Below are positions 9,031 through 46,094 of a DNA stretch of 64,000 bases, piece by piece. How positions within the stretch are numbered: position 1 is the first letter of the stretch; each line of letters begins with the position of its first letter. The notes beneath the pieces were generated by a model. That model saw only the letters and a list, made by a program, of their open reading frames with translations. It did not search any database and was not told where the DNA came from. Source of the DNA: Acidobacteriota bacterium (GTDB lineage: Bacteria > Acidobacteriota > Thermoanaerobaculia > Gp7-AA8); contig JAJPHC010000028.1 in the NCBI GenBank assembly GCA_021325515.1, positions 62,001 through 126,000 of the forward strand, written 5' to 3'. The position numbers and the translations under genes are program-made.

Positions 9031-9034
9031 ACAC

Positions 9035-9630
9035 TCAGTCGTCTTCTTTCACGCGGCCATCGTCCAGCCGATAGCTCCGGCCGCATTCTTCGCATCGCGC
9101 GCGCTGCTGTTCGAATCGCAGTGCCGGCCCGCAACGGCAGACCCATCCGACCCGGCGCGCAGGGACACCGGCCATCAACGCATATTCGTCGACGTCTTTC
9201 GTCACGACCGCGCCTGCAGCGATGAAGGCCCAGGCGCCGATCGTCCCGCCGCAGACGATCGTGGCATTCGCTCCGATCGTCGCGCCGCGCTTCACCACGG
9301 TGCGTGCATACGGCTCGCGGTCCTTGCGCGGAAATGCAGACCGCGGCGTACGCACGTTCGTGAACACCATGCTCGGACCGCAGAAGACATCATCTTCCAG
9401 CGTCACCCCGTCGTAGATCGAGACGTTGTTCTGGACCCGCACGTTATTGCCAAGCACACAGCCGTTCGCCACGAAGACGTTCTGGCCGAGGGAACAACGC
9501 TCACCGATGACGGCACCGGGATGACGTGGCAGAAGTGCCAGATCTTCGTCCCGGCCCCGATCGATGCGCCATCGTCGACGAAGGATGTTTGGTGAATGAA
9601 GACAGACTCGTTTTTGTCGCTCATGTTCAA
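9035..9630 (-). pseudogene. WbpD/WlbB-like sugar N-acetyltransferase (left-handed beta helix), frameshifted
   Basis: N-terminal frame [21 protein letters not shown] and C-terminal frame [39 protein letters not shown] join after restoring one base near 9520. Confidence 0.8.
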
Positions 9631-21332: not shown

Positions 21333-22340
21333 GTGCTTCCCGAACAGACCTGGCCCGTGCTGAACCAGCGCGCCGGAAATGCGCACTGGCCGCCCGAAAA
21401 TCCGCGCGAGGCTTCGTCGTTCATCGATGCCGCGAATCGCCACGGGCTTCTTCCTCTTCTGTTCGAACAGCAGAGCGACCTGCCGGAAGCCGTGCGCGAA
21501 GCTCTCGTTTCATGGCGCGCAATGCTGCGCGCACTGCAGCTTCGCGCGGCCGCGCAGACGCAGGCGATCGAGAAACTCTCGGCCGTCCTCTCCACCATCC
21601 CCTTCGTCCTGCAGAAGGGCTCGGACTATCGCTTCACTCTCTATCCGCGGCCGGAGCTTCGTCCGATGCAGGACATCGACATCCTCCTCCCCACTTCGCT
21701 GCTCGAAGAGGCAGAGGAACTGCTGACGGCGGGCGGCATCCGGCGCCAGCAGGCGCGCGGCATCACGGAGCGGCTTCCCGATCACTACGAGCGGACGTAC
21801 GTGCTCGACGAGAAGATTCTTCTGGAGGTGCATCATCGTTTTGCGCAGCCGATCCGCTGCCGGATCGACTACGCCGCGATGTTCAGCCGCGCGGTGCCGC
21901 TGCAGGCCGTCAACGCGCGGCGGCTGGGCGACGCCGATTCGCTGATCCAGCACGTCTTCAACATGGCGAGCGACGAGTTCAACTCTCCCCTCGGCCGCTT
22001 CGTCGATCTCTGGCTGCTGCTGCGCGCGCGTCCATCCGCACTCGAAGAGGCCACGGCACTCGCACGCGAGTGGCAGGTGCAACGCCCGTTGTACGGCGCG
22101 CTCTCACTCGCATCGCGGATCTTTCCCGACATCCGCATTCCCCCGGACCTGCTGACGAAACGCGAACGAAGATTTCTCGACGAGCGAATCCTGCCCGACC
22201 CTCGCCTGCCTCATCCCGAGGCCGGGCGCGCGCGGCATCTTTGGCAGAAGTTCTGGCTGATCGACCGCGCGTGGCGGCGCGCCGGTTTCGCCGCGGTTCA
22301 CGCGATCGCTGTGGCTCGCGGTCTCCTCTCCCGCCCCTGA
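21333..22340 (+). CDS. Nucleotidyltransferase family protein (NTP_transf_5-like)
   Basis: LQKGSDYRFTLYPRPELRPMQDIDILLPTSLLEEAEELL...LEVHHRFAQPI. Confidence 0.8.
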   Translation: MLPEQTWPVLNQRAGNAHWPPENPREASSFIDAANRHGLLPLLFEQQSDLPEAVREALVSWRAMLRALQLRAAAQTQAIEKLSAVLSTIPFVLQKGSDYRFTLYPRPELRPMQDIDILLPTSLLEEAEELLTAGGIRRQQARGITERLPDHYERTYVLDEKILLEVHHRFAQPIRCRIDYAAMFSRAVPLQAVNARRLGDADSLIQHVFNMASDEFNSPLGRFVDLWLLLRARPSALEEATALAREWQVQRPLYGALSLASRIFPDIRIPPDLLTKRERRFLDERILPDPRLPHPEAGRARHLWQKFWLIDRAWRRAGFAAVHAIAVARGLLSRP

Positions 22341-30220: not shown

Positions 30221-30242
30221 ACGCGTAGCCTACAATCGGAAC

Positions 30243-31313
30243 ATGACTGCCGAGGCATCGAGTCTCGCTGCGCCGTTGCCGGCGCGCGTGGCGAGCGCGA
30301 ACTGGATCGAGTCACGCTGGTTTGATCTGGCGTGGTTCGTCGCACCGGGCGCCACGATGCTGCCGGTCATTCTTCTGGCTCTGTTCGTCGACCCGCGTTT
30401 CGGCCTCCTCTTCGTCGCGCTGGCCTTTCCCCACTATGTCTCGACACTCGCATTCTTCTTCTGGGACGACAACCGCCCGCGGCTGAAAGCACAATGGCTG
30501 GCGTTCGCGGGAGGTCCGCTGCTGATTGCGCTCGTCTATCTGGCGTTGTTCGCCAGGATCCCGAAGCTGATGGCCGCTGCGCTTCTGATCTGGAACACGT
30601 ATCACGTCGCGCTGCAGAACTGCGGCATCGCGTCGATCTACCGCCATCGCGCGGGAGTCAACGATCCCGGGCAGAAGGCGGCGACGAATTTCGCGATCAT
30701 CAGCGTGGCGGCCTTCTGCGCGTTCTGGAACGTGCGAACGAATGACGCGTTCGATCCGCTGTTGCGGCTCACCCCCAACTATCCGCTGCTCCTTCGCATG
30801 ATCCTGGCGGCGGTCGCGCTTGCAGCGCTGATCCGTTTCGGAGTGGCTCTCGTCTCGCGCATCCGCGCCGGACAGGCACCGATCGCCTCGGAACTGCTGT
30901 TTCTGTTCAGCGCGCTCACGTTCTTCCATCCTTATCTGTGGCTGGCGGACAACAATCAGGCGACTGCGGTGCTGCTGCTTCCACATTACGTGCAATACCT
31001 GGCGATCCTCTGGCTGCTGCACCGCAGGCGATTCCGCACCAGCGAAGGATCGGCGCCGCAACGTATTCTGAGCGGAATCAGCCGCAGCACCCCGATTCTG
31101 GCGAGCTGCATCCTCTTGTTAGGCGGCTTCATCGCCGTGGCCAGCATCGTGCTGCGCCATGCCGGCCATGCGAACGTCTTTCAGTTTCTCTTCATGCTGA
31201 CGGCGTTCGAGCACTACTACCTCGACGGGTTGTTCTGGGCGTTCCGCGACCCGACGGTGCGGCGGACGATCGGCCCCTACCTGACGCGGTACACGCCGGC
31301 GGCCGCGGCGTGA
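30243..31313 (+). CDS. Polytopic membrane protein of unknown function
   Basis: Multi-TM ORF with GC-rich codon structure; FPHYVSTLAFFFWDD, WNTYHVALQNCGIASIYR. Confidence 0.65.
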   Translation: MTAEASSLAAPLPARVASANWIESRWFDLAWFVAPGATMLPVILLALFVDPRFGLLFVALAFPHYVSTLAFFFWDDNRPRLKAQWLAFAGGPLLIALVYLALFARIPKLMAAALLIWNTYHVALQNCGIASIYRHRAGVNDPGQKAATNFAIISVAAFCAFWNVRTNDAFDPLLRLTPNYPLLLRMILAAVALAALIRFGVALVSRIRAGQAPIASELLFLFSALTFFHPYLWLADNNQATAVLLLPHYVQYLAILWLLHRRRFRTSEGSAPQRILSGISRSTPILASCILLLGGFIAVASIVLRHAGHANVFQFLFMLTAFEHYYLDGLFWAFRDPTVRRTIGPYLTRYTPAAAA

Positions 31314-31328: not shown

Positions 31329-31997
31329 TTGCTGCACCAGTTCTTCAAATCGCTGGCCTGGCTCGAGCCCGTCGTCGAGCTCGTGCGGCTCGGGGTGTTT
31401 CTCGCCTTTCTCCTGCTGCTCGCCGCGCAACGCCTGGCACAGACGGAAGCGGCGCGGATACGGCGCGTCCGTACCCTCGCCGGCTTCTGCGTCATCGTGA
31501 CGACCGCCGTAGGCATCACACAGATCGACGCATGGCCGTTTACGAACTGGGCGCTCGTGCACGGGCTGCGCTCTCCGGTCATGCATTCGTATGAGATCGA
31601 GGGAATCGATGCGGCCGGAAAAATCTGGCCGGTCGACAAGGCCGTTCTGCAGCCGATGGCAGCGGAGGAGATTGCGGCACCGCTCGGCCTCGTTCCCACA
31701 CTGTCGCACCAGGAGCAGCAGGAAGTGGCCCGCTGGCTGTATGACCGGACCGAGCGCGGGCGCCGCATGGTGGCGGCCGGTGAGCGCTTCCCTCCGAACG
31801 ACAAGTTTCTCGGCCCGCTGGCAGCGCCATACCACTTCGAAACGGCAAGGAGATGGAAGTCTCGCAGCGATGTGCCCCAAACGCCCTTCGCGGGCGTCCG
31901 CCTGGTCTTCACGACGTGGAACATCGACGAACGGGATCGGCGGGGAGACGCCGCGATCGAGCGTCGAGTGGTGACGGAGTACAGGCCACATGATTGA
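31329..31997 (+). CDS. HTTM-partner membrane-anchored protein (copy 1)
   Basis: N-terminal TMs, ITQIDAWPFTNWALVHG; paralogous to 43133-43753 and 45474-46094. Confidence 0.75.
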   Translation: MLHQFFKSLAWLEPVVELVRLGVFLAFLLLLAAQRLAQTEAARIRRVRTLAGFCVIVTTAVGITQIDAWPFTNWALVHGLRSPVMHSYEIEGIDAAGKIWPVDKAVLQPMAAEEIAAPLGLVPTLSHQEQQEVARWLYDRTERGRRMVAAGERFPPNDKFLGPLAAPYHFETARRWKSRSDVPQTPFAGVRLVFTTWNIDERDRRGDAAIERRVVTEYRPHD

Positions 31998-32895
31998 GCG
32001 AATCCGCCGGTCCTGGTCCGACTTCTGGTGGCGGCCGGCGAACCGCATCGATCTCGCGATGGCGCGGGTCGTCATCGCATCGACGGCTCTCTGGATCGTG
32101 CTCTCGCGATTCGATCTCCCATCGGTCATCACGTTCCCACACGTTTGGTGGATGCGCGTGCTGCCCGAACGAAAACTGCGCTTCTTCATCGGCGCAGGAT
32201 TAGGCACCGAACGGATACTCTGGCTGTTGCTTCATCTGGCGCTCGTCGCCGTGATCGCAGGAGTCTTCCTTCGGGTCTCGTCGTTCATCGCCGGACTTCT
32301 GCTCTACCACTTCGGCGCACTGGAGACGGTGCTCTGGACCGGCAATCCCTATTTGCGGGGATACACGATTCCGGCGCTCGCGCTATTGATCATCGCGATG
32401 TCGGCTTCGGCGGGACGCTTCGACCGCAAACGGCCGGATCCCGAGTCGTGGGAGAACCGGTGGCCGGTGGCACTCATTCAGTTCTTCTTCGCGGGCATCT
32501 ACTTCTGGGCCGCGTATGCAAAGCTGTACACGAGCGGTGTGCGATGGATTCGCGCGGAGAACATGAGGCTCTACATCGCCGGGATCGATCAATGGACCGG
32601 CGGGCCGCATCCGCCGCTGAATCAGTATCTGCTGTCGCACCCAGCGGTGCTTTCGGCGATGGCTGTCGCCGGCCTGCTGTTCGATGCGTCGTTCGCCCTC
32701 GCGCTCTTCTCGCGCAGGGCGCGCAGGATCCTGATTCCGATCGCGGTCTTCTTTCACATCGCGAACGGAATCGTCTTTCACATCTGGTTTCAGAATGCGT
32801 GGCTGCTGCTCGTCTATGCCGACTGGAACAGCATCGCCGCGAGCCTCCGCCGGAGAGGAATCGCATCGAACGTGATCCAGCCGTCGAGGCAGTAG
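31990..32895 (+). CDS. HTTM-domain membrane protein (copy 1)
   Basis: NRIDLAMARVVIASTALWIVLSRFDLPSVITFP...ISFAGIYFWAAYAKL-type core; overlaps partner gene. Confidence 0.8.
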   Translation: MIERIRRSWSDFWWRPANRIDLAMARVVIASTALWIVLSRFDLPSVITFPHVWWMRVLPERKLRFFIGAGLGTERILWLLLHLALVAVIAGVFLRVSSFIAGLLLYHFGALETVLWTGNPYLRGYTIPALALLIIAMSASAGRFDRKRPDPESWENRWPVALIQFFFAGIYFWAAYAKLYTSGVRWIRAENMRLYIAGIDQWTGGPHPPLNQYLLSHPAVLSAMAVAGLLFDASFALALFSRRARRILIPIAVFFHIANGIVFHIWFQNAWLLLVYADWNSIAASLRRRGIASNVIQPSRQ

Positions 32896-33692
32896 AGTCG
32901 TACGCCATCGAAGGTTCCCGGTTCCCGCTCGTGCTGTTGACGAACCCAACGCGCCGCGTCGCCGACGCGCAACCGGTTTCCCCCGCGATCGCGCAGGAGT
33001 TGCGTTCCGACGCCGCGCAGAAAGCGCCACACCCGGTCGACGCGCCACTCATCGTAAGGAATCGCGAGGTCGGCGCGAGTGGGGAGCGGATCATGCGAGG
33101 CCACGCCCGCGTCCTGCGAAATGCGTTGCGCAGTTCCGGCCGCGACCGCGCTGACGCACATCGCGAGCAGGCCCCCCCCTTCTTCGCCGAGACGGGCGGT
33201 CAGCTCTCTCCGCGTGGTGCCATCGTCGAGTGCAACGGATCGTTGGGCAACGATCTCTCCTTCATCGATGGCTTCGTTCATCCAATGCACGCTCACGCCT
33301 GCTTCCCGATCGTCGTGACGGAACATCCAGAAGACGGGATCGGCTCCGCGATGACGCGGTAGCAACGATGGGTGAACATTCAGGCAGCCCATGTGCGGAA
33401 CCGCGAGAACCTCGGGCGGCAGAAGGGCGGGATAGCTCGCGACGGCGATGAGATCGGGAGCGAGCTCGCGCAATGCCGGGGCGAGCAAAGCACGGCGGAC
33501 CCGTCTGACCGGTACCGCATGGCGAGAGGCCGAACGGCGCATCCAGCGCGACAAATGCCACGTCAGCAGACGCGCTTTCCAGCCCGGCGGCGGTGGCGGA
33601 AGAATCGCGCACAGCACGGGATGACTTGCGGCGAGACCGTCGAGAACGCGCGCGGAGTATTCGCCGCCGGAACCGAGGAAAACGATGCGCAT
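32814..33692 (-). CDS. Formyltransferase (methionyl-tRNA/sugar formyltransferase-like)
   Basis: MRIVFLGSGGEYSARVLDGLAAS...CLNVHPSLLPRHRGADPVFWMFRHDDREAGVSVHWMNEAIDEGEIVAQ. Confidence 0.88.
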   Translation of the reverse strand: MRIVFLGSGGEYSARVLDGLAASHPVLCAILPPPPPGWKARLLTWHLSRWMRRSASRHAVPVRRVRRALLAPALRELAPDLIAVASYPALLPPEVLAVPHMGCLNVHPSLLPRHRGADPVFWMFRHDDREAGVSVHWMNEAIDEGEIVAQRSVALDDGTTRRELTARLGEEGGGLLAMCVSAVAAGTAQRISQDAGVASHDPLPTRADLAIPYDEWRVDRVWRFLRGVGTQLLRDRGGNRLRVGDAARWVRQQHEREPGTFDGVRLYCLDGWITFDAIPLRRRLAAMLFQSA

Positions 33693-33746: not shown

Positions 33747-35699
33747 ATGTGCGGGATCAGCGCGATCGTCAACTACGGGACGGAGTCCGCGGACCAGCTC
33801 TCGCGCGAGCTGGCCCTCATGCACGCGCAGATTCCCCACCGCGGCATGGATGGCGAAGGCTTCGTGGCCATCGACGCGGCGATGAACGTCCGTGCGCGCC
33901 ATTCGCTGGAGACCCTCGACATGACCGGGGCGCGCGTCGCACTCGCGTTCCGCTGGCTGATCATTCAGGACGATGACCCGCACGCGGCGCAGCCGATGCG
34001 CTCCGAGGACGGCCGTCTCTGGATCGTATTCAACGGGGAGATCTACAACTTCGTCGAGCTGCGTGAGGAGCTCTCGCGCCACGGTTTCGCCTTCCATACC
34101 GGCACCGATACAGAAGTGATCCTCGCCGCGTACCAGCGCTGGGGAACGGAGTGTCTGAGCCGCTTCGACGGCATGTGGGCGATGGTGATCGTCGATCGCG
34201 AGAAACGGAAAGCGATCGTGAGCCGCGACCGCTTCGGCATCAAGCCGCTGTTTCGCTCCATTCGCGGAGAAGCGATCCGCTTCGCCTCGGAGATCAAACA
34301 ACTCGTCGCCGTCGATCGCCCCGGCATCAACGAATCGATCCTGTACGAGTATCTGCACGCGCATCGCGGAGCGTTCACGGACGAAACGTACTTCCGCGGC
34401 ATCGAGGCGTTTCCTTCCGCGTCTGTGCTGGAGCTCGACCTCACGAGCTCTTCGCGTCCGCCGGTCACGCCGAAGGTATGGTGGGATCTCGGCCACCTGG
34501 CAACGGCGCCGAAGAAAGCCTCCCGCGAAGATGCGAAGCGGGAGCTCGAACATCTGCTCCGCGAATCGGTGCGCGTTCATACGCGCGCCAGCGTGAAGCT
34601 CGGCACGTTCATCTCCGGCGGCCTCGATTCGACGACGATCACGGAGCTCGTGCGCCAGTCGTCTCCGCAGAAACACGATTCGTTCACGATCGTGTTCGAC
34701 CGCACGCGCTATGCGGAGTTCGACGAGTCGAATTACGTCGACGACTATGTGAAACAGAGCGGCGTCACGAATCATCGCGCCACGATCGATGCGCAATGGA
34801 TCCGTGACAATCTGCCGCGCGTCTCATGGATGCAGGACGAGCCGCTGATGGCCTCGACCATCTTCGCGCAGCACCGGGCATTTCAACTCGCGCGTGAACA
34901 TGGGACGACGGTCGTTCTCGACGGCCAGGGCTCGGACGAGGTCTTCGGCGGCTATCCGCATCATGAGTTCTCCGTGTGGCGGGATCACCTCACGCGCGGC
35001 GAGCTCCGCGCGTTCGCGCAGGAATCGAAGATCCTCAGCGCGAACTATCAGATGAGCATTCCGGCGATGTACTACCGGCTGGCGCGATCCGTCGCCGGAC
35101 ATGCGGTGCGCCGTTTCCGTCTGCGCTATGGCCGCTACGAGTGGCTCGATGATGGATACTTCCGCCCTTTCCGGCACGAAGCTCCGCCGATCGAGCGCGC
35201 GCGCCGCCGTGAGGCGCTCGCGTGGAAGTCGCATCTCGATCAGACGTCCTACGAGGACATCCGGTACACCGGCCTGCCACCGCTGTTTCTCTACAGCGAC
35301 CGCAATGGGATGGCTCACTCCGTGGAAGCGCGGCTGCCCTATGTCGATCACCGTGTCGTCGAGTTCGCAATGCAACTGCCGGCGGAGATGAAAGCGGGAT
35401 CGGGCGTGCGCAAACGTCTGCTGCGCGAGCTCGCGCGCGATCATCTTCCTGCTTCGATCACAGGCCGCACCGACAAGATGGGCTTCGTGACGCCTGAATC
35501 TCTCTGGCTGCGGACCGATCTGCACGATGCGGTGCTCGAGGCTGTTGACTCTCCGGTGATGGCGCGCCTTCCCTTCCTCCGTCCCGAAAAAGCGCGGGCG
35601 TTCGTCATGGCATATCGCGACGGAAAGCATCGCGACTTCCGCGCGGTCTGGCGGCTTCTCGCCCTGCGGCATTGGATCGAGGCCTTTCAACTCGCATGA
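33747..35699 (+). CDS. asnB: Asparagine synthetase (glutamine-hydrolysing) family protein
   Basis: MCGISAIVNYG class-II amidotransferase start, IVFNGEIYNF, GTFISGGLDSTTITELV PPi loop, QGSDEVFGGYPHHEF. Confidence 0.93.
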   Translation: MCGISAIVNYGTESADQLSRELALMHAQIPHRGMDGEGFVAIDAAMNVRARHSLETLDMTGARVALAFRWLIIQDDDPHAAQPMRSEDGRLWIVFNGEIYNFVELREELSRHGFAFHTGTDTEVILAAYQRWGTECLSRFDGMWAMVIVDREKRKAIVSRDRFGIKPLFRSIRGEAIRFASEIKQLVAVDRPGINESILYEYLHAHRGAFTDETYFRGIEAFPSASVLELDLTSSSRPPVTPKVWWDLGHLATAPKKASREDAKRELEHLLRESVRVHTRASVKLGTFISGGLDSTTITELVRQSSPQKHDSFTIVFDRTRYAEFDESNYVDDYVKQSGVTNHRATIDAQWIRDNLPRVSWMQDEPLMASTIFAQHRAFQLAREHGTTVVLDGQGSDEVFGGYPHHEFSVWRDHLTRGELRAFAQESKILSANYQMSIPAMYYRLARSVAGHAVRRFRLRYGRYEWLDDGYFRPFRHEAPPIERARRREALAWKSHLDQTSYEDIRYTGLPPLFLYSDRNGMAHSVEARLPYVDHRVVEFAMQLPAEMKAGSGVRKRLLRELARDHLPASITGRTDKMGFVTPESLWLRTDLHDAVLEAVDSPVMARLPFLRPEKARAFVMAYRDGKHRDFRAVWRLLALRHWIEAFQLA

Positions 35700-36778
35700 G
35701 ACGCGCGATCACAGCATCGCTCGCCGCGATCGGGCTGCTCGCTCTCTGCGCGGCCGCCGCAGAACTAGCGGCGCGTGGACTGCTGGCATGGAGCGACGCC
35801 CGGCGCGCGTCGAAGGTCGCTCCGCTTTCAACGCTCGATGTCTACCGGGGAGTGCCGTGGTCGAAGGACTACTGGTCGGAGTGGCGCCGCGCTGTCCGTC
35901 TTCCGCAAACCCTGCGCTACACCGGTGATGGGATCCTCCACCTGCAAGCGTTTCACGGACGCGCCATCAACATCGAGGACTCGGGCCTGCGCAGGACGAC
36001 GCACTGTGAGTGCACACAGCCGTCGCTGCGCATCGCGATGTACGGAGGCTCGATGTTGTGGGGTCACGGTTCCGACGACGAGCACACGATCCCATCGCTC
36101 GTCGCCGCGCGCTTCGAGCGCCGCGGCCAGCGCGTCTGCATCCGGAACCACGGTGAATGGGGCTCGACGAGTGCGCGCTCGGTCGCGGAACTGGAGCGCG
36201 ACCTGCGCAATGGAGAAAAGCCCGACATCGTCATTCTCTATGCCGGCTCCTACGATGTGAAAGAAACGATCTTCGGCAACGAGATGGACAACTGGATCAT
36301 GGAGCCTCGCGATGACGCCGGCCTGGCGCTGCCTCGCCTGCTGCGACGAGCGCGGCGAGCACCGCCAACTGCAGCCGAGCGGTTGAAACCGGGCGACGAG
36401 GTGGAGATCCGCGATCGCTCCATCGAGCGCTTCCTGGCGACAGAAAAGACGTTCGTCGCGCTGGCCCGCGCATACGGATTCCGGCCGGTCGTCATCTGGC
36501 ATCCGTACCTCCTCGCAAGCTCGAAGCGGATGACCTCGAGCGAAGCGGCAACCATCCGCAACTTCGACAAGACCCTGCCTGTGATGGCGGGTGCGATTCG
36601 CGCGGCCTACGCGGCGATGCGCAATCACCACGAAGAGCATTTCGAGAACCTCTCCGGCGCGCTCGACACCGAGAGCGGAACGATGTTCCTCGATGCAGGA
36701 CATCTATCGCCCGCGGCCAACGGACTGGTCGCGGAGCGAATCGTCTCGATCATTGACGCCCGGCGGGCGAGCCGCTAG
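35696..36778 (+). CDS. SGNH/GDSL hydrolase-like membrane-anchored protein
   Basis: IAMYGGSMLWGHGSDDEHTIPSLVA...IVILYAGSYDVKE...FLDAGHLSPAANGLVAE; ATGA overlap with asnB. Confidence 0.75.
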   Translation: MRRAITASLAAIGLLALCAAAAELAARGLLAWSDARRASKVAPLSTLDVYRGVPWSKDYWSEWRRAVRLPQTLRYTGDGILHLQAFHGRAINIEDSGLRRTTHCECTQPSLRIAMYGGSMLWGHGSDDEHTIPSLVAARFERRGQRVCIRNHGEWGSTSARSVAELERDLRNGEKPDIVILYAGSYDVKETIFGNEMDNWIMEPRDDAGLALPRLLRRARRAPPTAAERLKPGDEVEIRDRSIERFLATEKTFVALARAYGFRPVVIWHPYLLASSKRMTSSEAATIRNFDKTLPVMAGAIRAAYAAMRNHHEEHFENLSGALDTESGTMFLDAGHLSPAANGLVAERIVSIIDARRASR

Positions 36779-36813: not shown

Positions 36814-37092
36814 ATGGCGGCATACCATCGCAATCCGCAGATTGAAGAAGCGCCCCTTCAGCAGGAACTGATGTTGTTCAATCCTGCGACCTCGCAGTTC
36901 TACATGCTGAACGGCACCATGGCGTACATCTGGCGCAATTGCGAGCAGAAGTCGGTGGAGGAGCTGATTGCTTCGATCGGCGATGCGTTCGAGGGAACCG
37001 ACCCGTCGAAAGCCTCGGAAGACGTGGAAAAAGCACTGGCCGACCTCTTGTCACTCGGCCTTGTGATTGACCGCGCGGCCGTTACTACGTAA
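36814..37092 (+). CDS. PqqD-like protein (RiPP recognition element)
   Basis: NPQIEEAPLQQELMLFNPATSQFYMLNGTMAYIWRNCEQKSVEELIASIGDAF...DVEKALADLLSLGLV. Confidence 0.9.
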   Translation: MAAYHRNPQIEEAPLQQELMLFNPATSQFYMLNGTMAYIWRNCEQKSVEELIASIGDAFEGTDPSKASEDVEKALADLLSLGLVIDRAAVTT

Positions 37093-37136
37093 CATTGCCC
37101 AAATTTCACAATCGACCCCGGGAATAGGGAGAACGA

Positions 37137-37289
37137 ATGAACACGAGCTCTGTTACTCCGGAAACCAAGGAATCGCGTCCTCGTTACGAAACGCCCGCCA
37201 TCAAGACGATGAGCGAGCGCGAGATCCTCAACACCTTCCAGCTGACTCAGTCGATGTCCTCGTGGTGGGTCACGGCGAGCATGCGGTAG
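37137..37289 (+). CDS. Candidate RiPP precursor peptide, 50 aa
   Basis: MNTSSVTPETKESRPRYETPAIKTMSEREILNTFQLTQSMSSWWVTASMR*; below the 60-aa cutoff of the ORF track; GGGAATAGGGAGA upstream; between PqqD-like and HprK-like genes; YxxPxI motif. Confidence 0.8.
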   Translation: MNTSSVTPETKESRPRYETPAIKTMSEREILNTFQLTQSMSSWWVTASMR

Positions 37290-38330
37290 GTGCTGGTCTC
37301 CAACCGCACTTGTTCCCCGGCGCGAGATTCGTTCCGGGGAACAGCGTCCGGCCTCACCATCACGATCGCGAGTGTCGCGGCTCATGTCGTCTCTGACGAT
37401 GAAGAGCTGCTGAGCGAGATCTCTTTCGTTCTACGTGACACTCCCTCGACTCCTAGAACCGAATTCTCGTTTCACGTGTCTCTCGAGCCTGGCGCCAGCC
37501 ACGGCACGGTGACGATCGAGTGCGCGGATCCCATCGCATACACCGTCGACGATCTTCTTCTCTCCGCGTCGGCCGGCTCTCCTGAATTTCCTTTCCGGCT
37601 CATCGAGCCCGAATCGACAGGCTGGACGGCGTTCGCCTGGCGCGCAGACAGCTCCGCGCTGTTCGAGTTCCGCGACAACATCTGCCGCTTCTGGCTTCGC
37701 GATGGATGGCGAAGCGCCATCGCACTCCTGCTTCTTCACTGCGTCTATCGCGTGCGGCGGGACGCGCTGTTCTTTCACGCTGCGACCGTGAATGTCGGCG
37801 GCAGAGGGGCGATGATCATCGGCCCGAAGGGCGCCGGAAAATCGACGACCTCTCTCTCCCTCGCCGTTCGCGGCCACGCGCTCCTCGGCGATGAAACAGG
37901 CGCATACGTGCCGGCAACAGGTCTCATCGAGCCGTTTCTGCGGCCCGTGGGAATCAAGCCGGGACCACGTGCCCGCGGCGTGGACGAAGCACTCCTGCGG
38001 ATCTCGGCCTCTGAAGAGCCCGCGCGCATCATTCGCGTGCCGTTCGATTCGCTGATCGACGCACCCGCGCCGGAGCCTGTTCCACTGCGGGCAATCTTCT
38101 TCCTGCGGCCGTTCGAAGAGCGGCCTCGAATCACCGAGACGGCAGCCTCGATCACGGCGCTCTCAGAGCTGCAAACCGTATCGAGCTGCTTCGTCAACGC
38201 GCCGCGCACGCAGCGGGTGTTCGAGCTCGGGCGCATGCTCGGCCGCTGCCGGCTTTATCATTTGGCACCCGGAAATCCAGACGAGACCGCAGAGTGTCTC
38301 GAACAACGAATCGGAGCCCTCGCATCATGA
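37290..38330 (+). CDS. HPr kinase-related protein (HprK-like)
   Basis: DALFFHAATVNVGGRGAMIIGPKGAGKSTTSLSLAVRGHALLGDETGAYVP; GTG start directly abutting the peptide stop codon. Confidence 0.85.
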   Translation: MLVSNRTCSPARDSFRGTASGLTITIASVAAHVVSDDEELLSEISFVLRDTPSTPRTEFSFHVSLEPGASHGTVTIECADPIAYTVDDLLLSASAGSPEFPFRLIEPESTGWTAFAWRADSSALFEFRDNICRFWLRDGWRSAIALLLLHCVYRVRRDALFFHAATVNVGGRGAMIIGPKGAGKSTTSLSLAVRGHALLGDETGAYVPATGLIEPFLRPVGIKPGPRARGVDEALLRISASEEPARIIRVPFDSLIDAPAPEPVPLRAIFFLRPFEERPRITETAASITALSELQTVSSCFVNAPRTQRVFELGRMLGRCRLYHLAPGNPDETAECLEQRIGALAS

Positions 38331-38839
38331 ACGTGAAACAGCGAGCCGACGCGGTCGGCACCTTCCGCTACATCGAAGTGCAACTGATGGAGACCGCCGC
38401 CTACTGGACGCCGATCACTCCGCAGATGGAAGTCAAGGTGATGCTCGGCCGTCACATCTGGGATTTCGCGCAGCACGCGGACTGGCTCGGCAAGCGGACG
38501 TTCGAGCTGCGCCAGGCGGAGCACTACACGCGCCGTCCGGGCGACGACTACCATCAACTGCTCGAACAGATGAAGCAGGCAGAAGGTGTCGAAGAGCGCC
38601 TCACGCTGCTGTACGACATCACGATTCCGGGACTCATCCGCCGCTATGAGCGCTATCTCGAGGAAACGGATCGCCTGCTCGACGGGCCGACGGTGCTCGT
38701 CATCGAGCGCATCGTTCCCGAACTTCGGCGCCAGATCAGCGACGCGCACGCGCTGCGCGCAGAGATCGGGCTCAAGACCACCGACGCAACGGACTTCCGC
38801 AATCGCGAAGCGGCGATCGCATCGGTCGTCGCGGCATGA
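38327..38839 (+). CDS. Helical ferritin-like protein (candidate diiron/carboxylate-rich)
   Basis: FRYIEVQLMETAAYWTPITPQMEVKVMLGRHIWDFAQHADWLGKRTFELR; ATGA overlap with HprK-like gene. Confidence 0.6.
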   Translation: MNVKQRADAVGTFRYIEVQLMETAAYWTPITPQMEVKVMLGRHIWDFAQHADWLGKRTFELRQAEHYTRRPGDDYHQLLEQMKQAEGVEERLTLLYDITIPGLIRRYERYLEETDRLLDGPTVLVIERIVPELRRQISDAHALRAEIGLKTTDATDFRNREAAIASVVAA

Positions 38840-39657
38840 GGGACACCATGAGCACCATCGGATACGTCGACGTCGAAGGCTTCCGTCTCCGCGCTGATCC
38901 GGCGCGCGACGACTGTTTCAAGGTCGTGCTGCGCGACGCGGACATGCACGAGTATCCGGAAGGAACGGAGCTGGCGGCACGAGAGACGGTGCATCGCCAC
39001 ATGAGCAACGAGATCACGAGTCTCGATATCGCCGCGCAATGCCTCGTCGAGTTTCCCGATGCACCGTGGGAGCTGCGCCTCGAGCTTGCACGGCAGTGCT
39101 GGGACGAAGCGCGTCACGTTCAGGTGCTCTACCGCCGTCTGCTGGAAATGGGTGGCCACAAGGGCGAGTTCCCGATCGCGACGTTCGAGTGGATGATCAC
39201 CTCGGCTCTGGACAGCATCGTCGCGCGGCTGGCGACACAGAACCGCACCTTCGAAGCAGGAGCGATGGACGTCGTGAAGAGTCTGGCCCGCGGCTTTCGC
39301 AGCGGTGGCGATGAAGAGACCTCCGCCGTCCTCGAAGGAATACTCGCCGACGAAATCCAGCACGTTCGTTTTGCGAACCGCTGGATCAAACGCCTCGCGC
39401 AGCAGGATCGCCGCTCCCTCATGCAGATGGCAAAAGCCGTTCGCTTGATCGCCGACGTGAACGGCAAGCTCGCTGTGCGCAAGGGTGAAGTGAACGCCGT
39501 CGGCAAGGAGCTGACGGCCGCCGAAGAGAATGTGCCGGCCGTCAACATCGAAGACCGGAAGCTGGCGGAGTTCAGCGACGAAGAGATTCACGAGATCCTC
39601 CGCCAGGCGGGATTCCGCTCGCTGGTTGAAGACGACCGTGCGGAGGCGTCCGTATGA
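38836..39657 (+). CDS. DUF455/ferritin-like diiron protein (copy A)
   Basis: HMSNEITSLDIAAQCLVEFPDAPWELRLELARQCWDEARHVQVLYRRLLEMGG...ILADEIQHVRFANRWI. Confidence 0.85.
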   Translation: MRDTMSTIGYVDVEGFRLRADPARDDCFKVVLRDADMHEYPEGTELAARETVHRHMSNEITSLDIAAQCLVEFPDAPWELRLELARQCWDEARHVQVLYRRLLEMGGHKGEFPIATFEWMITSALDSIVARLATQNRTFEAGAMDVVKSLARGFRSGGDEETSAVLEGILADEIQHVRFANRWIKRLAQQDRRSLMQMAKAVRLIADVNGKLAVRKGEVNAVGKELTAAEENVPAVNIEDRKLAEFSDEEIHEILRQAGFRSLVEDDRAEASV

Positions 39658-40343
39658 CCGAGCTCGATCCGCAACTGTTCACCGAGCCCCCCGCGCGCGA
39701 CGAGCGCTTCGAGATCAAGCAGACGTGGTCAGAGATGACCAACATGTGGGCGGACGACGGCACGATGCTGATCGAGTTCATGCATCGGCAGATGAACGAG
39801 GAAGTCAACGGGCTGGAGATTGCCGCGCGCAATCTGACCGACTTTCCGGACGCACCGTGGGAACTTCGTCTGGCGATTGCGCGGCAATGCTGGGACGAGT
39901 CGCGCCACGTAAATGCATTCCGCCGCTGCTTCGAAGCGCGCGGAGGCGAGATCGGGATGTTTCCGGTGATGAATTTCGAATACCGGATGATCATGGCGAT
40001 CCCTTCACTCATCGGCCGTCTCGCCGTGCAGAACCGGAGCTTCGAAGCCGCGGGCATTCAGGCGATTCGCGAAGCGATCGAGCACGCACAACATGATCCG
40101 GATGTTGCAGCGCTGCTCGACGCGCAGCTCGCGGATGAGATCCAGCACGTGCGGTATGCGAACCGCTGGATCGAGTCGCTGATCAGGAGCAATCCGCGCT
40201 ACGCGCTCGATGTCGTGCGCGCTGTCGCGCAGGCGAACCGAGCATTTCCGATGATCGCCGGCGAGGCAGCGATGCACCTCGAGCTCGATGACCAGATCCG
40301 AACCGAGGCAGGGTTCGCTGACGCGCCCGCGGCGCCGGCCTGA
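39654..40343 (+). CDS. DUF455/ferritin-like diiron protein (copy B)
   Basis: QMNEEVNGLEIAARNLTDFPDAPWELRLAIARQCWDESRHVNAFRRCFEARGG...QLADEIQHVRYANRWI; paralogue of copy A. Confidence 0.85.
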   Translation: MTELDPQLFTEPPARDERFEIKQTWSEMTNMWADDGTMLIEFMHRQMNEEVNGLEIAARNLTDFPDAPWELRLAIARQCWDESRHVNAFRRCFEARGGEIGMFPVMNFEYRMIMAIPSLIGRLAVQNRSFEAAGIQAIREAIEHAQHDPDVAALLDAQLADEIQHVRYANRWIESLIRSNPRYALDVVRAVAQANRAFPMIAGEAAMHLELDDQIRTEAGFADAPAAPA

Positions 40344-40347
40344 GCGA

Positions 40348-40857
40348 ATGGAAACGCTGACGCCGCAACGGCTCCTCTCCGTTGCAGCATTGTGGCGGCA
40401 ATCGAAGCGCGAGATCCGGACGAGCTTCCAGGGAATTTCGATGCGGCCGGCAATCGAGCCCGGCCAGACGGTGCTCCTTCGCTGCACGAACGACGTCGCG
40501 ATCGGCGACATCGTCGCCGTCGCCGTCGGATCCGATGTCATCGTTCACCGGCTCGTCGCGGCAGCACCCGGACGGTGGTGGCTTCTGCGCGGCGATCACA
40601 ACGTCCTTTGCGACGTCCCCCTCATCGATCCCGCGGCGATCATCGGAAAAGTCATCGCTGTTGAACGCAGCGACGGAAGCTCGTTCGAACCGCCGCCGGT
40701 AACCGGCCGCATCGGTGCGCGATTCGTCACACGCGCAACGACTCTGCTGCTCGCGATCAACATCCCTCTTGCGCGATGGATCACGAGGCTCGCCGTCGCC
40801 CTGCGGCGCACAGCCAGCCTCGGAGTCGCCGCGGTGCGCGGCTCATCGCCGCTCTGA
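40348..40857 (+). CDS. S24/S26 (signal peptidase-like) family protein
   Basis: SFQGISMRPAIEPGQTVLLRCTNDVAIGDIVAVAVGSDVIVHRLVAAAPGRWWLLRGDHN. Confidence 0.8.
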   Translation: METLTPQRLLSVAALWRQSKREIRTSFQGISMRPAIEPGQTVLLRCTNDVAIGDIVAVAVGSDVIVHRLVAAAPGRWWLLRGDHNVLCDVPLIDPAAIIGKVIAVERSDGSSFEPPPVTGRIGARFVTRATTLLLAINIPLARWITRLAVALRRTASLGVAAVRGSSPL

Positions 40858-42267
40858 GATCTTCACCGTCTCGCCCGCCTCGACCCAATAGCGAGCACGG
40901 TCCTTGTCACCCACGAACACGACCGGAATCCGTTCGTGCGCAGCGCCGAACTGAATCGCACCACTCGCCTCGAATTCGCGGTAAACGGAGTAGCGGTCCG
41001 CGAGCGGCTGTACGGCATCCCAAATGAAGATCGAAGAACCGGGAGCGAGTGCGCGCAGGTGCGGCAGTGCACGTTGCATGGCCGCGATCTCGTGATGTCC
41101 CGTCACGCGCATCTCGCGCCACTTCTGCGCAAATCCATCGAGATGCCACGCCAGCGCGATTGCTGCAACCGCATAGAGAATCGGCCGCGATGCGCGTTGC
41201 ATCGCGATCGCCGCGAGCATCGAGAACCAGAACACCGACGGCCCGATGTACGTCTCGCTGATGTGATGCATGAGCACGACCGGAAACCACGACGACAGCA
41301 GACCGCAGCAGGCGATCACGGCCGCCGCACCCAGCTCGTGGCGAGCGCGAAAGAGTCCTGCGAGCAGCAGAACGCCGAGGATCAGCGTTACGCCGGCGAA
41401 GAGAACGAGCAGCGGCCAGCTTCGATGGTGTATCGCATCGAACCATCGAAGCGTTCCGACGGGAGAGAGCGTTGCCGCGGTGAGCTGAGATGCGTTGATC
41501 AGCCACTCGAGCGGATTGCCGAACCGATAGCGGTGAACAGCCGCCTGCGTCTCCTCGAGTTGCATGACGCCGCCCGCGCTTCTGCGCAGGAACCAGAAGG
41601 CTGCGGTTGCGATCAGCGACGGCGACGTGCGCCGCCATGCACTGGCAACCGGTCCAAACACGCGGGGGATCATGAACGAGCCGGCCAGAGTCATCGCCGC
41701 AAAGACGCTCCAGGCAATCGCGTTCTCCTTGAATCCGAGAGCGAGGAACAGCAGCACGCCCGCGATCCAGCCGCGTCTCCATGACGCACGGCCGTCGATG
41801 ATGTCGATGACGATCAGCGCCGCCGAGGCTGCACCGGCTGCACAACTGCCGGCAGCCCCCACACTTTTCCACTGATAGTGCGCCCCGACGATCGCCTGAT
41901 GAAATGCCGGCAGGATTGCGGCGACAAGCGCCGCGTCGCGCCGCACACCGGCGGACCGCAGGATCAGCAGAAGAATCCACGCGAGCGCAGCGGCCATCGC
42001 AGATTTCACGACGGCAAGCGGCACGATGCCGTAAGTCGCGGGCGAGATTTCGTAGGCCGCGGCATTCATCAGGAACCAGAACGGCGACCAGTGGATGTCC
42101 CGCGCGCTGAAGGGCGCCGAGAGCAGATGGCCCTGCCTGACCGTCTCGACCGCCGTCGCCATCGGACCCCAGTCATCCGCAACCGGAGGCGTCCGGACCT
42201 GCAGGACGAACGTCACGAGCGCGATCGCAGCGATCAGGAGCCACTCGGGCCAGCGCAGAGATTTCAT
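40843..42267 (-). CDS. Polytopic membrane protein of unknown function (glycosyltransferase-like topology)
   Basis: MKSLRWPEWLLIAAIALVTFVLQVRTPPVADDWGPM...; ~11 TM segments. Confidence 0.65.
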   Translation of the reverse strand: MKSLRWPEWLLIAAIALVTFVLQVRTPPVADDWGPMATAVETVRQGHLLSAPFSARDIHWSPFWFLMNAAAYEISPATYGIVPLAVVKSAMAAALAWILLLILRSAGVRRDAALVAAILPAFHQAIVGAHYQWKSVGAAGSCAAGAASAALIVIDIIDGRASWRRGWIAGVLLFLALGFKENAIAWSVFAAMTLAGSFMIPRVFGPVASAWRRTSPSLIATAAFWFLRRSAGGVMQLEETQAAVHRYRFGNPLEWLINASQLTAATLSPVGTLRWFDAIHHRSWPLLVLFAGVTLILGVLLLAGLFRARHELGAAAVIACCGLLSSWFPVVLMHHISETYIGPSVFWFSMLAAIAMQRASRPILYAVAAIALAWHLDGFAQKWREMRVTGHHEIAAMQRALPHLRALAPGSSIFIWDAVQPLADRYSVYREFEASGAIQFGAAHERIPVVFVGDKDRARYWVEAGETVKISERR

Positions 42268-43136
42268 CGCGCGAGCAGCACCTTCCTGCGGCTGCGCAAC
42301 CTCTCGGCAAGCGAGTCCCAGTTCACGAAGAGCAGCAGCAGCGGCGCACTCGCAAAGTGGATGTTCATCGTCAGAAGAATGCCGATGTGGAACCCGATCG
42401 CGGCAAGAACGAACGACAGACGAAGGCGGGGCATGAACACGCAGAGCCAGAAGAGCGACTCGAACAGCAACGTCGCGATGACGATGGCCCAGCACAGCAG
42501 CGGCCGCGTGGCGACCTGCATCCCGAATGCGTTCGGATGAACGCCCCAATTGCCGGCGATCTGCGCGCGGATCGTCGTCCAGGTGAACCAGCGAATGCCG
42601 TTGAATCGGATCTTCGAAAGGAATGCGAACAGATAGATGAACGAATAGATCAACTGGATGAGGGTGACCGGCCAGCGATACTCCGGCGACATCGCGTCAC
42701 CGTTCGCCGGCGGCACCTCGGCGAAGGCGAGGATGAACAGCCCGATCGTGGCAACCGTCAGGCCGGCGAAGTGCGTGTGCGGCATTCCGATGATCACTTC
42801 TTCGAACGGCGCGAAGTGGTAGAGCAGCAACGCCGAGATCGCACACATGATGCGCGGAAGAGCTCCTGCGATCACCGCCGCGAGCGTCACGTGAAGAATC
42901 GCGTAGAGCATCCATTCGACGGGTTCCCCTCCACGTACGATTCCGAAACGGAGATAGCCGGCCCGCTGCGCCGGATCGAAGAACACGGCCGGCCACGACA
43001 CGAGGTGCGGAATGTCGGGCTTCGAGAGAACCACCCAGAGTGCGTGCGCGGCGAGAATGATCCGCGTCGCACGCAGCGATCGTGCGCTGGCTGGTGTGAA
43101 CCAGCACCGGTTCCAGAGCGCTGCGACGCTGCTCAT
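42264..43136 (-). CDS. HTTM-domain membrane protein (copy 2)
   Basis: SLRATRIILAAHALWVVLSKPDIPHLVSWP...; aligns by eye with copies 1 and 3. Confidence 0.8.
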   Translation of the reverse strand: MSSVAALWNRCWFTPASARSLRATRIILAAHALWVVLSKPDIPHLVSWPAVFFDPAQRAGYLRFGIVRGGEPVEWMLYAILHVTLAAVIAGALPRIMCAISALLLYHFAPFEEVIIGMPHTHFAGLTVATIGLFILAFAEVPPANGDAMSPEYRWPVTLIQLIYSFIYLFAFLSKIRFNGIRWFTWTTIRAQIAGNWGVHPNAFGMQVATRPLLCWAIVIATLLFESLFWLCVFMPRLRLSFVLAAIGFHIGILLTMNIHFASAPLLLLFVNWDSLAERLRSRRKVLLAR

Positions 43137-43753
43137 TGCCGGCACTCCATGAACAAGGTTCGCGTGACCCGGTGGTCGCCGCGAACCATCGCACCGACCT
43201 GGAAGTCCATTCGATAGACGCGCACCGCACGGTACGGCTCGTGCGGCACGTCCTTCCATCGCTTCAATCGCCACCAGTACGGACAGCCGAGTGCGTCGAG
43301 ATACTTCTCGTAACCGATGCGATGTCCGGCAGCCAGCGCCTCGCGCGTTTCGTTTGCGCGAGTCAGCAGGAAGTGCTGCACCTCTTCCTGCTGCGCCCGT
43401 GACAGCTCGTCATAGCGCATGCTGATCCAGGTCTGCATAACGCTGTCGAATACCGGCGACCAGGTGTACGGATCGAGTCTCCACTCACGGCCGGAGCTGT
43501 CGACTCCATAAAAAGCGAGCCACCGTTCGTGCGACTCGTCCGTCCCGCGGCCCGTTGCCAGCATGTTGTTCGTGAACGGCCAGACATCCCACTGTGTGAC
43601 GCCTGCCAGCCCGCTCACGCCCAAAACGAAAAGGATGAAGAGACTGACGGTGCGGCGGCGCTCATCGCCGGCACTCCGCATGACGAGCGCACCCAGCGCG
43701 AAGAAGAAGAGGAATGCGAGAAGCTTCGGGCCTTCGATCAGCCACGCGGTCAC
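43133..43753 (-). CDS. HTTM-partner protein (copy 2)
   Basis: GVTQWDVWPFTNNML...YGVDSSGREWRLDPYTWSPVF; overlaps HTTM gene. Confidence 0.75.
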   Translation of the reverse strand: MTAWLIEGPKLLAFLFFFALGALVMRSAGDERRRTVSLFILFVLGVSGLAGVTQWDVWPFTNNMLATGRGTDESHERWLAFYGVDSSGREWRLDPYTWSPVFDSVMQTWISMRYDELSRAQQEEVQHFLLTRANETREALAAGHRIGYEKYLDALGCPYWWRLKRWKDVPHEPYRAVRVYRMDFQVGAMVRGDHRVTRTLFMECRQ

Positions 43754-44640
43754 TGCGAAACGCTCACCACGCCATCGGCAGGTCCGGCGCCTGCGCCGCG
43801 CTGTCCGTTGATGAGAAACGGATCGACGAGCTGTGCGAAAAACGATTCAGGAACCGTCTCGGAAATGCCATAGGCCTCGGGTGTCTTCCGCGCATCCACC
43901 GCCGTACCGAACATCCGGTCCCAGATGCTGTACGTCAGACCGTAATTGCCGTGATGCAATTCAGGATCGAGCGCATGATGCACGCGATGATATTGCGGAC
44001 TGACGAACGCGTAGCCCAGCGCTCCGAACGTCCACGAACCTCCCGAGTGGGCCGCTGCGTTGAGGACGGTGTCGATGAAGATGGCGATCGTGAATGACGC
44101 GGTCGTCGAGCCCAGCATGATGCCCGGGATCATCGGCGCCAGACCGCGATAGAGCGCTTCGACGACATGAAAGCGGTAGCCGGTCAGCGGCGTCAACTCG
44201 GTTTGCGAATGATGGATCCGGTGAAAGCGCCAGAAGAATGAGCTCTCGTGACCGAGGCGATGCGCCCAGTAGCCGGCGAAATCGATCGTGAACGAAACCA
44301 CGAGAATCTGCACGATCGCCGGAGCACCGTCGAGAAGGTGAAGCCGGAGATAGGGAGCGAAGCGAATGATCGTGCGCTCAGAAACGGCAAAGAGAGGCGC
44401 GGCAAAAAAGAACGAGTAGATACCGCCGAGATAGAAAGCGGTGTAGATCGCATCCGTGGCCGCGTTCCTCGAGACGAGCAGCGGCCAGCGCTTCTGCACA
44501 GCGCGCTTCCACATCAGCCAGAGGATCAACGCGCCTGCAAACGCGGAGAACCGCGCCACGCTCGCGGGCGCGCTCCAGACTCCCCACGCCTTCGCGGCGA
44601 GGTAGCGCACGAGATCTGCGGCTGAGGACATCTCGTTCAT
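43750..44640 (-). CDS. Fatty acid hydroxylase/sterol desaturase family protein
   Basis: DFAGYWAHRLGHESSFFWRFHRIHHSQTELTPLTGYRFHVVE...HRVHHALDPELHHGNYG His-box motifs. Confidence 0.92.
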   Translation of the reverse strand: MNEMSSAADLVRYLAAKAWGVWSAPASVARFSAFAGALILWLMWKRAVQKRWPLLVSRNAATDAIYTAFYLGGIYSFFFAAPLFAVSERTIIRFAPYLRLHLLDGAPAIVQILVVSFTIDFAGYWAHRLGHESSFFWRFHRIHHSQTELTPLTGYRFHVVEALYRGLAPMIPGIMLGSTTASFTIAIFIDTVLNAAAHSGGSWTFGALGYAFVSPQYHRVHHALDPELHHGNYGLTYSIWDRMFGTAVDARKTPEAYGISETVPESFFAQLVDPFLINGQRGAGAGPADGVVSVSQ

Positions 44641-44641
44641 T

Positions 44642-45493
44642 TTACGCTCCACCCCAGACCCTTCTCCGGAGCGCCGGCCAATCGACGAACACGAGCACGA
44701 AACCCGCTTCCAGAAAAACGATGTTCATCAGAAGCGCGATCCCGAGATGCATCGCAAGCACCGCCGGAACGAACAACACGCGCGCGCGGCGCGAAACGAG
44801 CACGAGAGGAAACGCCAGTTCGAGGGCAAGTCCGCCGGCGCCGACGAACGAACAAAGCGACGGATGAGCTGCCAGCCGGTATCCGAGAGGCGTGGAGCCT
44901 GTGGCGATGCCGTGGATCTGATCGTAGGAAAGGATCAGGTGCGTGAGACTCGAGGAGCTCAGCCAGTCCAATCCGGCATTGCGCACCTTCGCGATTCCTG
45001 CGAACCAGTACACCTCTGCGACGATCACCTGGAACAGCGGAAGCACCCAGGAACGATCACGGATCCAGCGATCGCGCCAACCAGGCGCCGGCGCGCACGC
45101 GACAATCACCATGCCGAGCGTCGGCAGCGTGAGTCCCCGCAGCATCGGATCAGGAGTCCACATCAACGTCTCGATCGGTGCGAAGTGATAGAGGAGGAGG
45201 CCGCTGAGCAGGCAGGTGACCGGCGCCGCGACTCCAGCCAGCACGAGAAGCAGCAGGACGATGAGAGCGGCATAGAGAGCACGCTCGACGCCGAGGGGAA
45301 ACAGGAGCAGATAGGCGATCTTGTGGGCGTGGGGAACGCTCGCCCACATCACATCAGGGAACGCCAGCAGGGAAGGAAGATCAGGACGGGAAAGAACGAT
45401 CCACAATGCCGACAACGCGCAAATGGTCCGCATCATCACGAGATTCGCGGCGTGCACCGGACGGAAGAAGAAATCAGCGAGCGCGGTATTCAC
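44642..45493 (-). CDS. HTTM-domain membrane protein (copy 3)
   Basis: HAANLVMMRTICALSALWIVLSRPDLPSLLAFPDVMW. Confidence 0.8.
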   Translation of the reverse strand: MNTALADFFFRPVHAANLVMMRTICALSALWIVLSRPDLPSLLAFPDVMWASVPHAHKIAYLLLFPLGVERALYAALIVLLLLVLAGVAAPVTCLLSGLLLYHFAPIETLMWTPDPMLRGLTLPTLGMVIVACAPAPGWRDRWIRDRSWVLPLFQVIVAEVYWFAGIAKVRNAGLDWLSSSSLTHLILSYDQIHGIATGSTPLGYRLAAHPSLCSFVGAGGLALELAFPLVLVSRRARVLFVPAVLAMHLGIALLMNIVFLEAGFVLVFVDWPALRRRVWGGA

Positions 45494-46094
45494 CGATCAC
45501 CTCCCGCTGGATCGCAGCTTCATTGCGATATCGCGCTTCCACCTGCCATGTTTCTCGAATCAGGCGGACGGCCGTGAATGATGCAGAAGGGACATTTTGA
45601 GGAGATGTCCACAAAGCGCGGCGCTGGAACGCGTAGGGCGCCGCCATCCAGCGCAGCAGCCAGCCGTTCACGCCGGCCTCCTCACCGCGCCTTACGCGCA
45701 GCCGCGCCTTCTCGGCGCGATCGAGCACGAAGCGGAAAAACTCTGCACGCTTCGATGGATCCGATCGCAGGTCGTCGAGGTGCCATGCGAGCCAGCCATC
45801 CAGCACTTCGTTGTCGGATGCCGGCTGCCAGACGCGAGGATCGAGCCGCTGCCACCGGCCGCTGGCGTCCGAGACTTCGAAGTCGTAGTTCACGACGTGC
45901 TCGAGCCCGCGTCCGCTCACGAGCGCCCAGGTCGCAAACGGCCACGATTCGCGCCGCGAGATCCCTGCCGCGAACGACACGAGAAGAACGAACGCGATGA
46001 ACAGCGACGCTGACTTGGTGTCACGGCGAATCTGCGCCACGATCGCCAGGCAGACGAACACCGCGAACACGAACAGCCGCAGCAGATGAATCAT
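45474..46094 (-). CDS. HTTM-partner protein (copy 3)
   Basis: ISRRESWPFATWALVSG...FEVSDASGRWQRLDPRVWQPA; overlaps HTTM gene. Confidence 0.75.
   Translation of the reverse strand: MIHLLRLFVFAVFVCLAIVAQIRRDTKSASLFIAFVLLVSFAAGISRRESWPFATWALVSGRGLEHVVNYDFEVSDASGRWQRLDPRVWQPASDNEVLDGWLAWHLDDLRSDPSKRAEFFRFVLDRAEKARLRVRRGEEAGVNGWLLRWMAAPYAFQRRALWTSPQNVPSASFTAVRLIRETWQVEARYRNEAAIQREVIGEYRAR

Follow-up and report, generated by a model that had tools for sequence, protein, structure and literature searches.

A conserved cassette of a PqqD-like protein, a Trp-Trp peptide and ferritin-like diiron proteins as a probable new type of ribosomal peptide pathway

The operon and its recurrence across genomes

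Contig JAJPHC010000028.1 of an Acidobacteriota bacterium (assembly GCA_021325515.1) carries, within the 64,000-nucleotide stretch analysed here (positions 62,001 to 126,000 of the forward strand, hereafter the window), a run of genes at 36814–40857 that encodes a PqqD-like protein, a 50-residue peptide, an HprK-like kinase, three ferritin-like proteins (Fer1, Fer2 and Fer3) and an S24/S26-type peptidase (Table 1). A first-pass annotation, made from the letters of the window, had described seven consecutive plus-strand genes with abutting or overlapping junctions and had read them as a system for a ribosomally synthesized and post-translationally modified peptide (RiPP). The coordinates and spacings are reproduced exactly, and the seven-gene operon is confirmed, with all genes on the plus strand and intergenic gaps of 44, 0, −4, −4, −4 and +4 nucleotides; the open reading frame (ORF) of the peptide begins with ATG and has GGGAG upstream.

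Relatives were located by searches with the HprK-like, Fer2 and Fer1 proteins; 14 genomes carry the cassette, spread over Acidobacteriota, Gemmatimonadota and one betaproteobacterium. The carriers in the window's own family or order are G399, G396, G404 and G055; the other Acidobacteriota carriers are G026 and L047, those of the Gemmatimonadota are L048 and L096 to L100, and the betaproteobacterial one (L046) is Betaproteobacteria bacterium GR16-43, whose genome is complete (CP019169). The distribution is patchy, strong matches to Fer1 or Fer2 occurring in 3 of 396 Acidobacteriota genomes, 6 of 395 Gemmatimonadota, 5 of 19 genomes in the window's order and 1 of 349 in the order of GR16-43; a search of plasmids with Fer1 and one of viral contigs with Fer2 returned no match. 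Fer1 and Fer2 are present at 14/14 loci, Fer3 and the peptidase at 13/13 testable loci (the contig of L048 ends inside Fer2), and the PqqD-like gene together with the short ORF at all 13 loci whose contig extends that far (that of L097 is cut off before them). The HprK-like gene is present at 13 of the 14 and is missing from the otherwise complete L046 cassette. The usual order is PqqD, peptide, HprK, Fer1, Fer2, Fer3, peptidase; Fer2 directly follows the peptide in L042 and L046, the peptidase gene is reversed in L047, L097 and L100, and in L047 the PqqD-like gene is reversed too. Retention of the gene set while its order varies speaks for a functional link, and recurrence of the short ORF together with this set in three phyla is more than chance; the cassette is conserved, and a local accident is excluded. 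Two loci carry lesions that reflect either assembly error or decay, for the peptidase gene is split across two frames in L038 (4322–4803, minus strand), and an in-frame stop precedes the Fer2 start in L044 (near 9148–9244).

Table 1. Genes of the cassette and of its surroundings in the window
Feature	Coordinates	Strand	Evidence and remarks
PqqD-like stand-alone RiPP recognition element (RRE), 92 aa	36814..37092	+	PF05402
Candidate precursor peptide, 50 aa: MNTSSVTPETKESRPRYETPAIKTMSEREILNTFQLTQSMSSWWVTASMR	37137..37289	+	YxxPxI at 17-22, invariant WW at 43-44; kept in 13/13 loci
HprK-like kinase, 346 aa	37290..38330	+	GTG start abutting the TAG of the peptide gene; P-loop K184, H163, H196, D201 conserved
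Fer1, 170 aa	38327..38839	+	Ferritin fold, canonical ExxH pairs lacking
Fer2, 273 aa, DUF455 diiron protein	38836..39657	+	PF04305 E=8.8e-28
Fer3, 229 aa, second DUF455 diiron protein	39654..40343	+	PF04305 E=8.5e-19
S24/S26-type serine peptidase	40348..40857	+	PF00717 E=8.4e-7; S31/H67 invariant, D83 nearly invariant
Asparagine-synthase-type amidotransferase (AsnB), N-terminal Cys intact	33747..35699	+	TIGR01536; recurs in 8/14 loci
SGNH-hydrolase-like protein, between AsnB and PqqD	35696..36778	+	PF13472 E=7.6e-7, slightly under gathering score; otherwise only in L038
Formyl-transferase-like neighbour	32814..33692	-	BLAST to L098/L100 members, themselves PF00551; family in 7 loci
Membrane block: HTTM-type protein, small transmembrane (TM) protein, FA_hydroxylase, second HTTM	42264..45493	-	Each family recurs near the cassette elsewhere
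NTP_transf_5 nucleotidyltransferase, 15 kb upstream of the cassette	21333..22340	+	PF14907 E=3.4e-37; family near the cassette in 8 loci

The candidate precursor and its recognition element

The short ORF, on whose recurrence in homologous operons the first-pass annotation had staked its reading, is kept with its pattern (YxxPx[IVL] and Trp-Trp) at all 13 loci. The 13 peptides span 38 to 56 residues, most have recognisable ribosome-binding sequences, and they share the succession Y-x-x-P-x-[IVL], Met/Leu, acidic stretch, [FI]-Q-x-[TSN], small residue, W-W and tail. The Tyr, the Pro, the Gln and both Trp are invariant (FQ being IQ in one peptide), the spacing from the Tyr to Trp-Trp is 26 in 11 peptides and 30 in two, Trp-Trp is preceded in every peptide by a small residue (S, T, C, A or G), and the tail beyond it is variable, from 1 to 9 residues. 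Against its nearest relative, L038, the window's peptide differs by 14 silent and 4 amino-acid codon changes over a conserved stretch of 37 codons (NG86 dN 0.06 and dS 1.5, the latter near saturation; dN/dS about 0.04), and the ORF is, as judged from this comparison, under purifying selection. Six further genome records, when searched with the peptide profile, contain one copy of the peptide each.

The identity given to the PqqD-like protein is borne out by its match to PF05402 (E=3.2e-14); it scores under the cut-off for TIGR04353 and for the lasso PqqD models, and a sequence search of the PDB returned no match to it. YxxP is the characterised recognition sequence of lasso peptides, and a W/Y/LxxP/L/I motif is common to the FusE, McjB and PqqD RRE groups (PMC12710340). 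At 13/13 loci the PqqD-like RRE stands with a peptide that bears the matching YxxP leader motif, and a short gene-encoded candidate precursor with a conserved leader is found beside putative modifying enzymes in the relatives as well.

Two of the peptides terminate in Cys, those of L039 (...WWMAGC) and L046 (...WWNTC), and a PF02441 flavoprotein is encoded at these two loci only. The two flavoproteins are 55% identical and have MrsD, EpiD and a putative flavoprotein decarboxylase among their PDB matches; LanD enzymes decarboxylate the C-terminal Cys of RiPP precursors (PMC10373908). By count, the coincidence of Cys end and flavoprotein has P = 1/78 (about 0.013). The Fer2 tree places L039 and L046 in separate clades, and their sisters L040 and L042 have neither the Cys end nor the flavoprotein; the pairing thus probably arose twice. 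This pairing, the strongest single piece of evidence for a core peptide at the C-terminus, ties that end to enzyme chemistry. Searches of the family of GR16-43 and of the orders of G026, G580 and G451, made to enlarge this sample, yielded no further clusters. As no dehydratase or lanthionine-type enzyme was found in the scans run on the cassette, formation of aminovinyl-cysteine (AviCys) is unlikely, and LanD-like decarboxylation, confined to L039 and L046, would form a side branch. The L039 cluster alone also has a gene (8853–10124, minus strand) for a putative cytochrome or copper type II monooxygenase (PF03712, just under cut-off), which overlaps the LanD-like gene and precedes the PqqD-like one.

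The short ORF might instead encode a small subunit, structural or regulatory, of a ferritin-like oxygenase complex, which it would stabilise and whose substrate would be a small molecule or lipid. Its high conservation and fixed C-terminal Trp-Trp could reflect a docking element, and neighbours of membrane-protein and lipid type (FA_hydroxylase, HTTM, formyl-transferase) recur around the cassette. However, a peptide that bears YxxP and is accompanied by a PqqD-type RRE has the signature of a RiPP precursor, the tail past Trp-Trp varies freely, the Cys end co-occurs with a gene resembling C-terminal-Cys decarboxylases, and neither L042 nor L046 has the lipid-type neighbours; we regard a subunit role as unlikely.

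Ferritin-like proteins, accessory enzymes and neighbouring genes

Fer2 and Fer3 both match the DUF455 family PF04305 and carry its E...ExxH...E...ExxH ligands: E59, E91, H94, E140, E173 and H176 of Fer2 (E91xxH94 and E173xxH176) are conserved at 14/14 loci, and the equivalent set of Fer3 (E49/E50, E82, H85, E131, E162 and H165) is conserved likewise. The predicted model of Fer2 (pLDDT 74.5) lies nearest to the aldehyde-deformylating oxygenase and phenylacetyl-CoA monooxygenase proteins (PaaABC), followed by Dps and bacterioferritin. Fer1 has no match in Pfam (PF04305 included), in NCBIfam or in a sequence search of the PDB, and no conserved ExxH pairs; AlphaFold predicts it as a confident four-helix bundle (pLDDT 94.9) whose best PDB matches in Foldseek are ferritin-like, with TM-scores of 0.63–0.68 and E-values of 0.02 at best, none being below 0.001. 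The annotation's three ferritin-like proteins thus hold as a fold, but the full diiron ligands are confined to Fer2 and Fer3, and Fer1 is a probable non-catalytic partner subunit. A two-domain family of about 465 residues (L101–L107, e.g. L104 4783–6186, minus strand), found in Gemmatimonadota and Acidobacteriota with no PqqD gene close by at any locus examined, places a Fer1-like domain before a ferritin-like domain with ExxH; pairing of a Fer1-type partner with a diiron subunit therefore appears to be a wider theme.

The kinase matches HprK_C weakly in Pfam (E=3e-6, under cut-off) and solved HprK structures by its P-loop. The protein proposed as an HprK-like kinase is therefore present, but it is not constant, and its absence from L046 makes it accessory. 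In the peptidase, whose assigned identity agrees with its Pfam match, Ser31 and His67 are kept at 13/13 loci, and a weak match to the model of the nickel superoxide dismutase (Ni-SOD) maturation protease is seen (E=6e-4); conservation of the catalytic residues predicts it to be the dedicated protease of a RiPP system and a probable leader peptidase.

Adjacent PqqD-like and HprK-like genes raise the question as to whether the cassette belongs to the HPr-rel-A system of NCBIfam or to SynChlorMet, that is, to a PqqD/HprK system already described, though not characterised, to which further genes have been added. The models TIGR04353, TIGR04352, ScmD and ScmC are indeed among the best partial matches, yet the scores fall short of the curated cut-offs (28.6 against 35, 56.1 against 200, 26 against 100 and 18 against 125, respectively), the proteins of L047, L100 and L042 are likewise under those of TIGR04353 and TIGR04352, and the kinase is missing in L046; membership is accordingly quite improbable.

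Directly upstream of the operon and on the same strand lie the AsnB and SGNH-hydrolase-like genes, absent from the first-pass annotation. Several families recur near the loci across phyla: AsnB (8/14), FA_hydroxylase (8), formyl-transferase-like proteins (7), HTTM with a small TM protein (6), a His-rich TM protein (6) and NTP_transf_5 (8, including L042 and L046). As all of these except NTP_transf_5 are absent in L042 and L046, they are not essential. AsnB scores 403.6 bits against the asparagine synthase model TIGR01536 (cut-off 267) and 232 bits against the lasso cyclase model (cut-off 525), and the AsnB proteins of four relatives score the same way, asparagine-synthase-like rather than as lasso cyclases.

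These scores bear on a rival reading, a lasso cluster of the paeninodin/pseudomycoidin type, in which the PqqD-like protein would be B1, the HprK-like protein the tailoring kinase, NTP_transf_5 the sugar transferase and AsnB the cyclase, with the S24/S26 peptidase replacing B2. A YxxP leader, a stand-alone PqqD, an HprK-like kinase, a nucleotidyltransferase and AsnB neighbours do all occur in lasso clusters (PMC8498205). However, AsnB passes the asparagine synthase cut-off, stays far under that for lasso cyclases and keeps its glutaminase Cys, no AsnB homologue was found at 6 of the 14 loci, none of the 13 peptides has Asp or Glu at positions 7–9 after FQxT (only L046 has a Glu, at position 3), and three ferritin-like proteins would be left unexplained. 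The annotation's statement that the operon lacks a lasso B2 or radical SAM protein stands, Pfam and NCBIfam having yielded no match to either for the cassette proteins, in a scan that covered part of the window's ORFs. A lasso peptide is unlikely on these sequence features, and the full reassignment of the genes to a lasso cluster very much so. In the open-access literature nothing was found on PqqD with HprK and lasso, nor on SynChlorMet, nor connecting a PqqD RiPP system with DUF455 or ferritin-like enzymes (subscription papers and preprints fell largely outside the search).

The wider surroundings add further membrane proteins. Three small-TM/HTTM-type pairs lie in the window (31329–32895, 42264–43753 and 44642–46094), on both flanks of the cassette, one of them adjoining FA_hydroxylase (43750–44652), and these families also stand beside the cassette in L038, L039, L048, L096 and L100; an SdpAB-like reading of the pairs was dropped, as they have no NCBIfam match. 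The His-rich multi-TM protein may be a membrane di-metal oxygenase. It is encoded at six loci (29985–31313 in the window, 9851–10951 in L041, 11595–12866 in L096), lying at several of them between Fer3 and the peptidase; the L041 member has no Pfam match. In L046, an NTP_transf_5 protein (2–1993, minus strand), 7 kb upstream of the cassette, ends in a weak PqqD-like domain.

A candidate pathway and its place among known systems

The homologous loci conserve peptide, RRE and enzyme set, in support of the annotation's overall reading, and the cassette probably represents a RiPP biosynthetic pathway of a previously undescribed class. As its motif and domain family suggest, the PqqD-like protein would bind the leader of the 50-residue peptide through Y17-x-x-P-x-I and present it to a complex of the degenerate Fer1 with Fer2 and Fer3, whose complete diiron sites would use O2 to oxidise the invariant Trp-Trp; this role is proposed for the ferritin-like proteins because they are the only redox enzymes in every cassette and Trp-Trp is the only invariant element past the leader. 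The Ser-His peptidase would then cut in the small-residue stretch before Trp-Trp or after FQxT, sites proposed since small residues precede Trp-Trp and the catalytic residues are kept, and would free a short Trp-Trp-containing product. Phosphorylation by the HprK-like protein in most clusters, and LanD-like decarboxylation of Cys-ending peptides only, would be accessory.

With a Trp-Trp near the C-terminus that does not vary, a conserved product is more likely than a diversified antimicrobial, and the conserved core, the single copy per genome (six searched) and the lack of an operon transporter together suggest a fixed product, whether cofactor, metal-binding or signalling molecule, rather than a diversified toxin or antimicrobial. 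More specifically, the product may be a peptide-derived Trp-Trp cofactor or metal ligand, a diiron counterpart of pyrroloquinoline quinone (PQQ) and mycofactocin, in which the two ferritin-like oxygenases would oxidise adjacent Trp residues of the RRE-bound precursor, possibly to a tryptophan-quinone-like form, before excision by the peptidase; we put this forward tentatively, as a doubtful but specific proposal. Several points weigh against the pathway as drawn: the Trp-Trp chemistry, the modified residues and the cleavage site are predicted from sequence, the conserved Trp-Trp could serve in docking of an enzyme and not be the site of modification, the link between Cys end and flavoprotein rests on two clusters, the operon has no obvious exporter, and the model of Fer2 is of moderate confidence.

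If the pathway is as proposed, soluble ferritin-type diiron enzymes join the known ribosomal-peptide chemistry, and DUF455 proteins of this kind gain a first substrate. The cassette points, in soil phyla that have been little studied, to a product whose Trp-Trp core is invariant, and, being compact (six or seven genes) and present in one carrier with a complete genome, GR16-43, it is directly testable; the natural Cys-ending variants with their LanD-like partner offer a built-in second test.

By comparison with known systems, the cassette combines RiPP logic with a set of modifying enzymes not found in any described class; by the features tested it is not a lasso, PQQ or mycofactocin system, and by curated cut-off it is not HPr-rel-A or SynChlorMet. 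With paeninodin/pseudomycoidin clusters it shares the stand-alone PqqD-like B1/RRE, the YxxP leader, the HprK-like kinase, the nucleotidyltransferase and the AsnB-like neighbours (PMC8498205); it differs in having no B2 match, an AsnB that is not a lasso cyclase, no acidic residue at 7–9, ferritin-like enzymes and an invariant Trp-Trp. HPr-rel-A (TIGR04352/TIGR04353) and SynChlorMet (ScmC/ScmD) likewise place PqqD-like and HprK-like proteins side by side, whereas the ferritin-like trio and the S24/S26 peptidase lie outside the matched models and HprK is dispensable here. The resemblance to LanD, EpiD and MrsD is limited to L039 and L046, where a stand-alone homologue stands beside a Cys-ending precursor. 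With DUF455 and PaaA/PaaC-type ferritin-like oxygenases the cassette shares four-helix diiron bundles that go together with a degenerate partner; a difference is that these DUF455 proteins have no assigned substrate.

PQQ and mycofactocin are peptide-derived redox cofactors whose precursor cores are Glu/Tyr and Val-Tyr. The cassette resembles their systems in its PqqD-type chaperone, its one short precursor, its invariant aromatic core residues near the C-terminus and its conservation across distant taxa; in contrast to both, the cassette proteins have no radical SAM match, the core is here Trp-Trp and the oxidative enzymes are ferritin-like diiron proteins.

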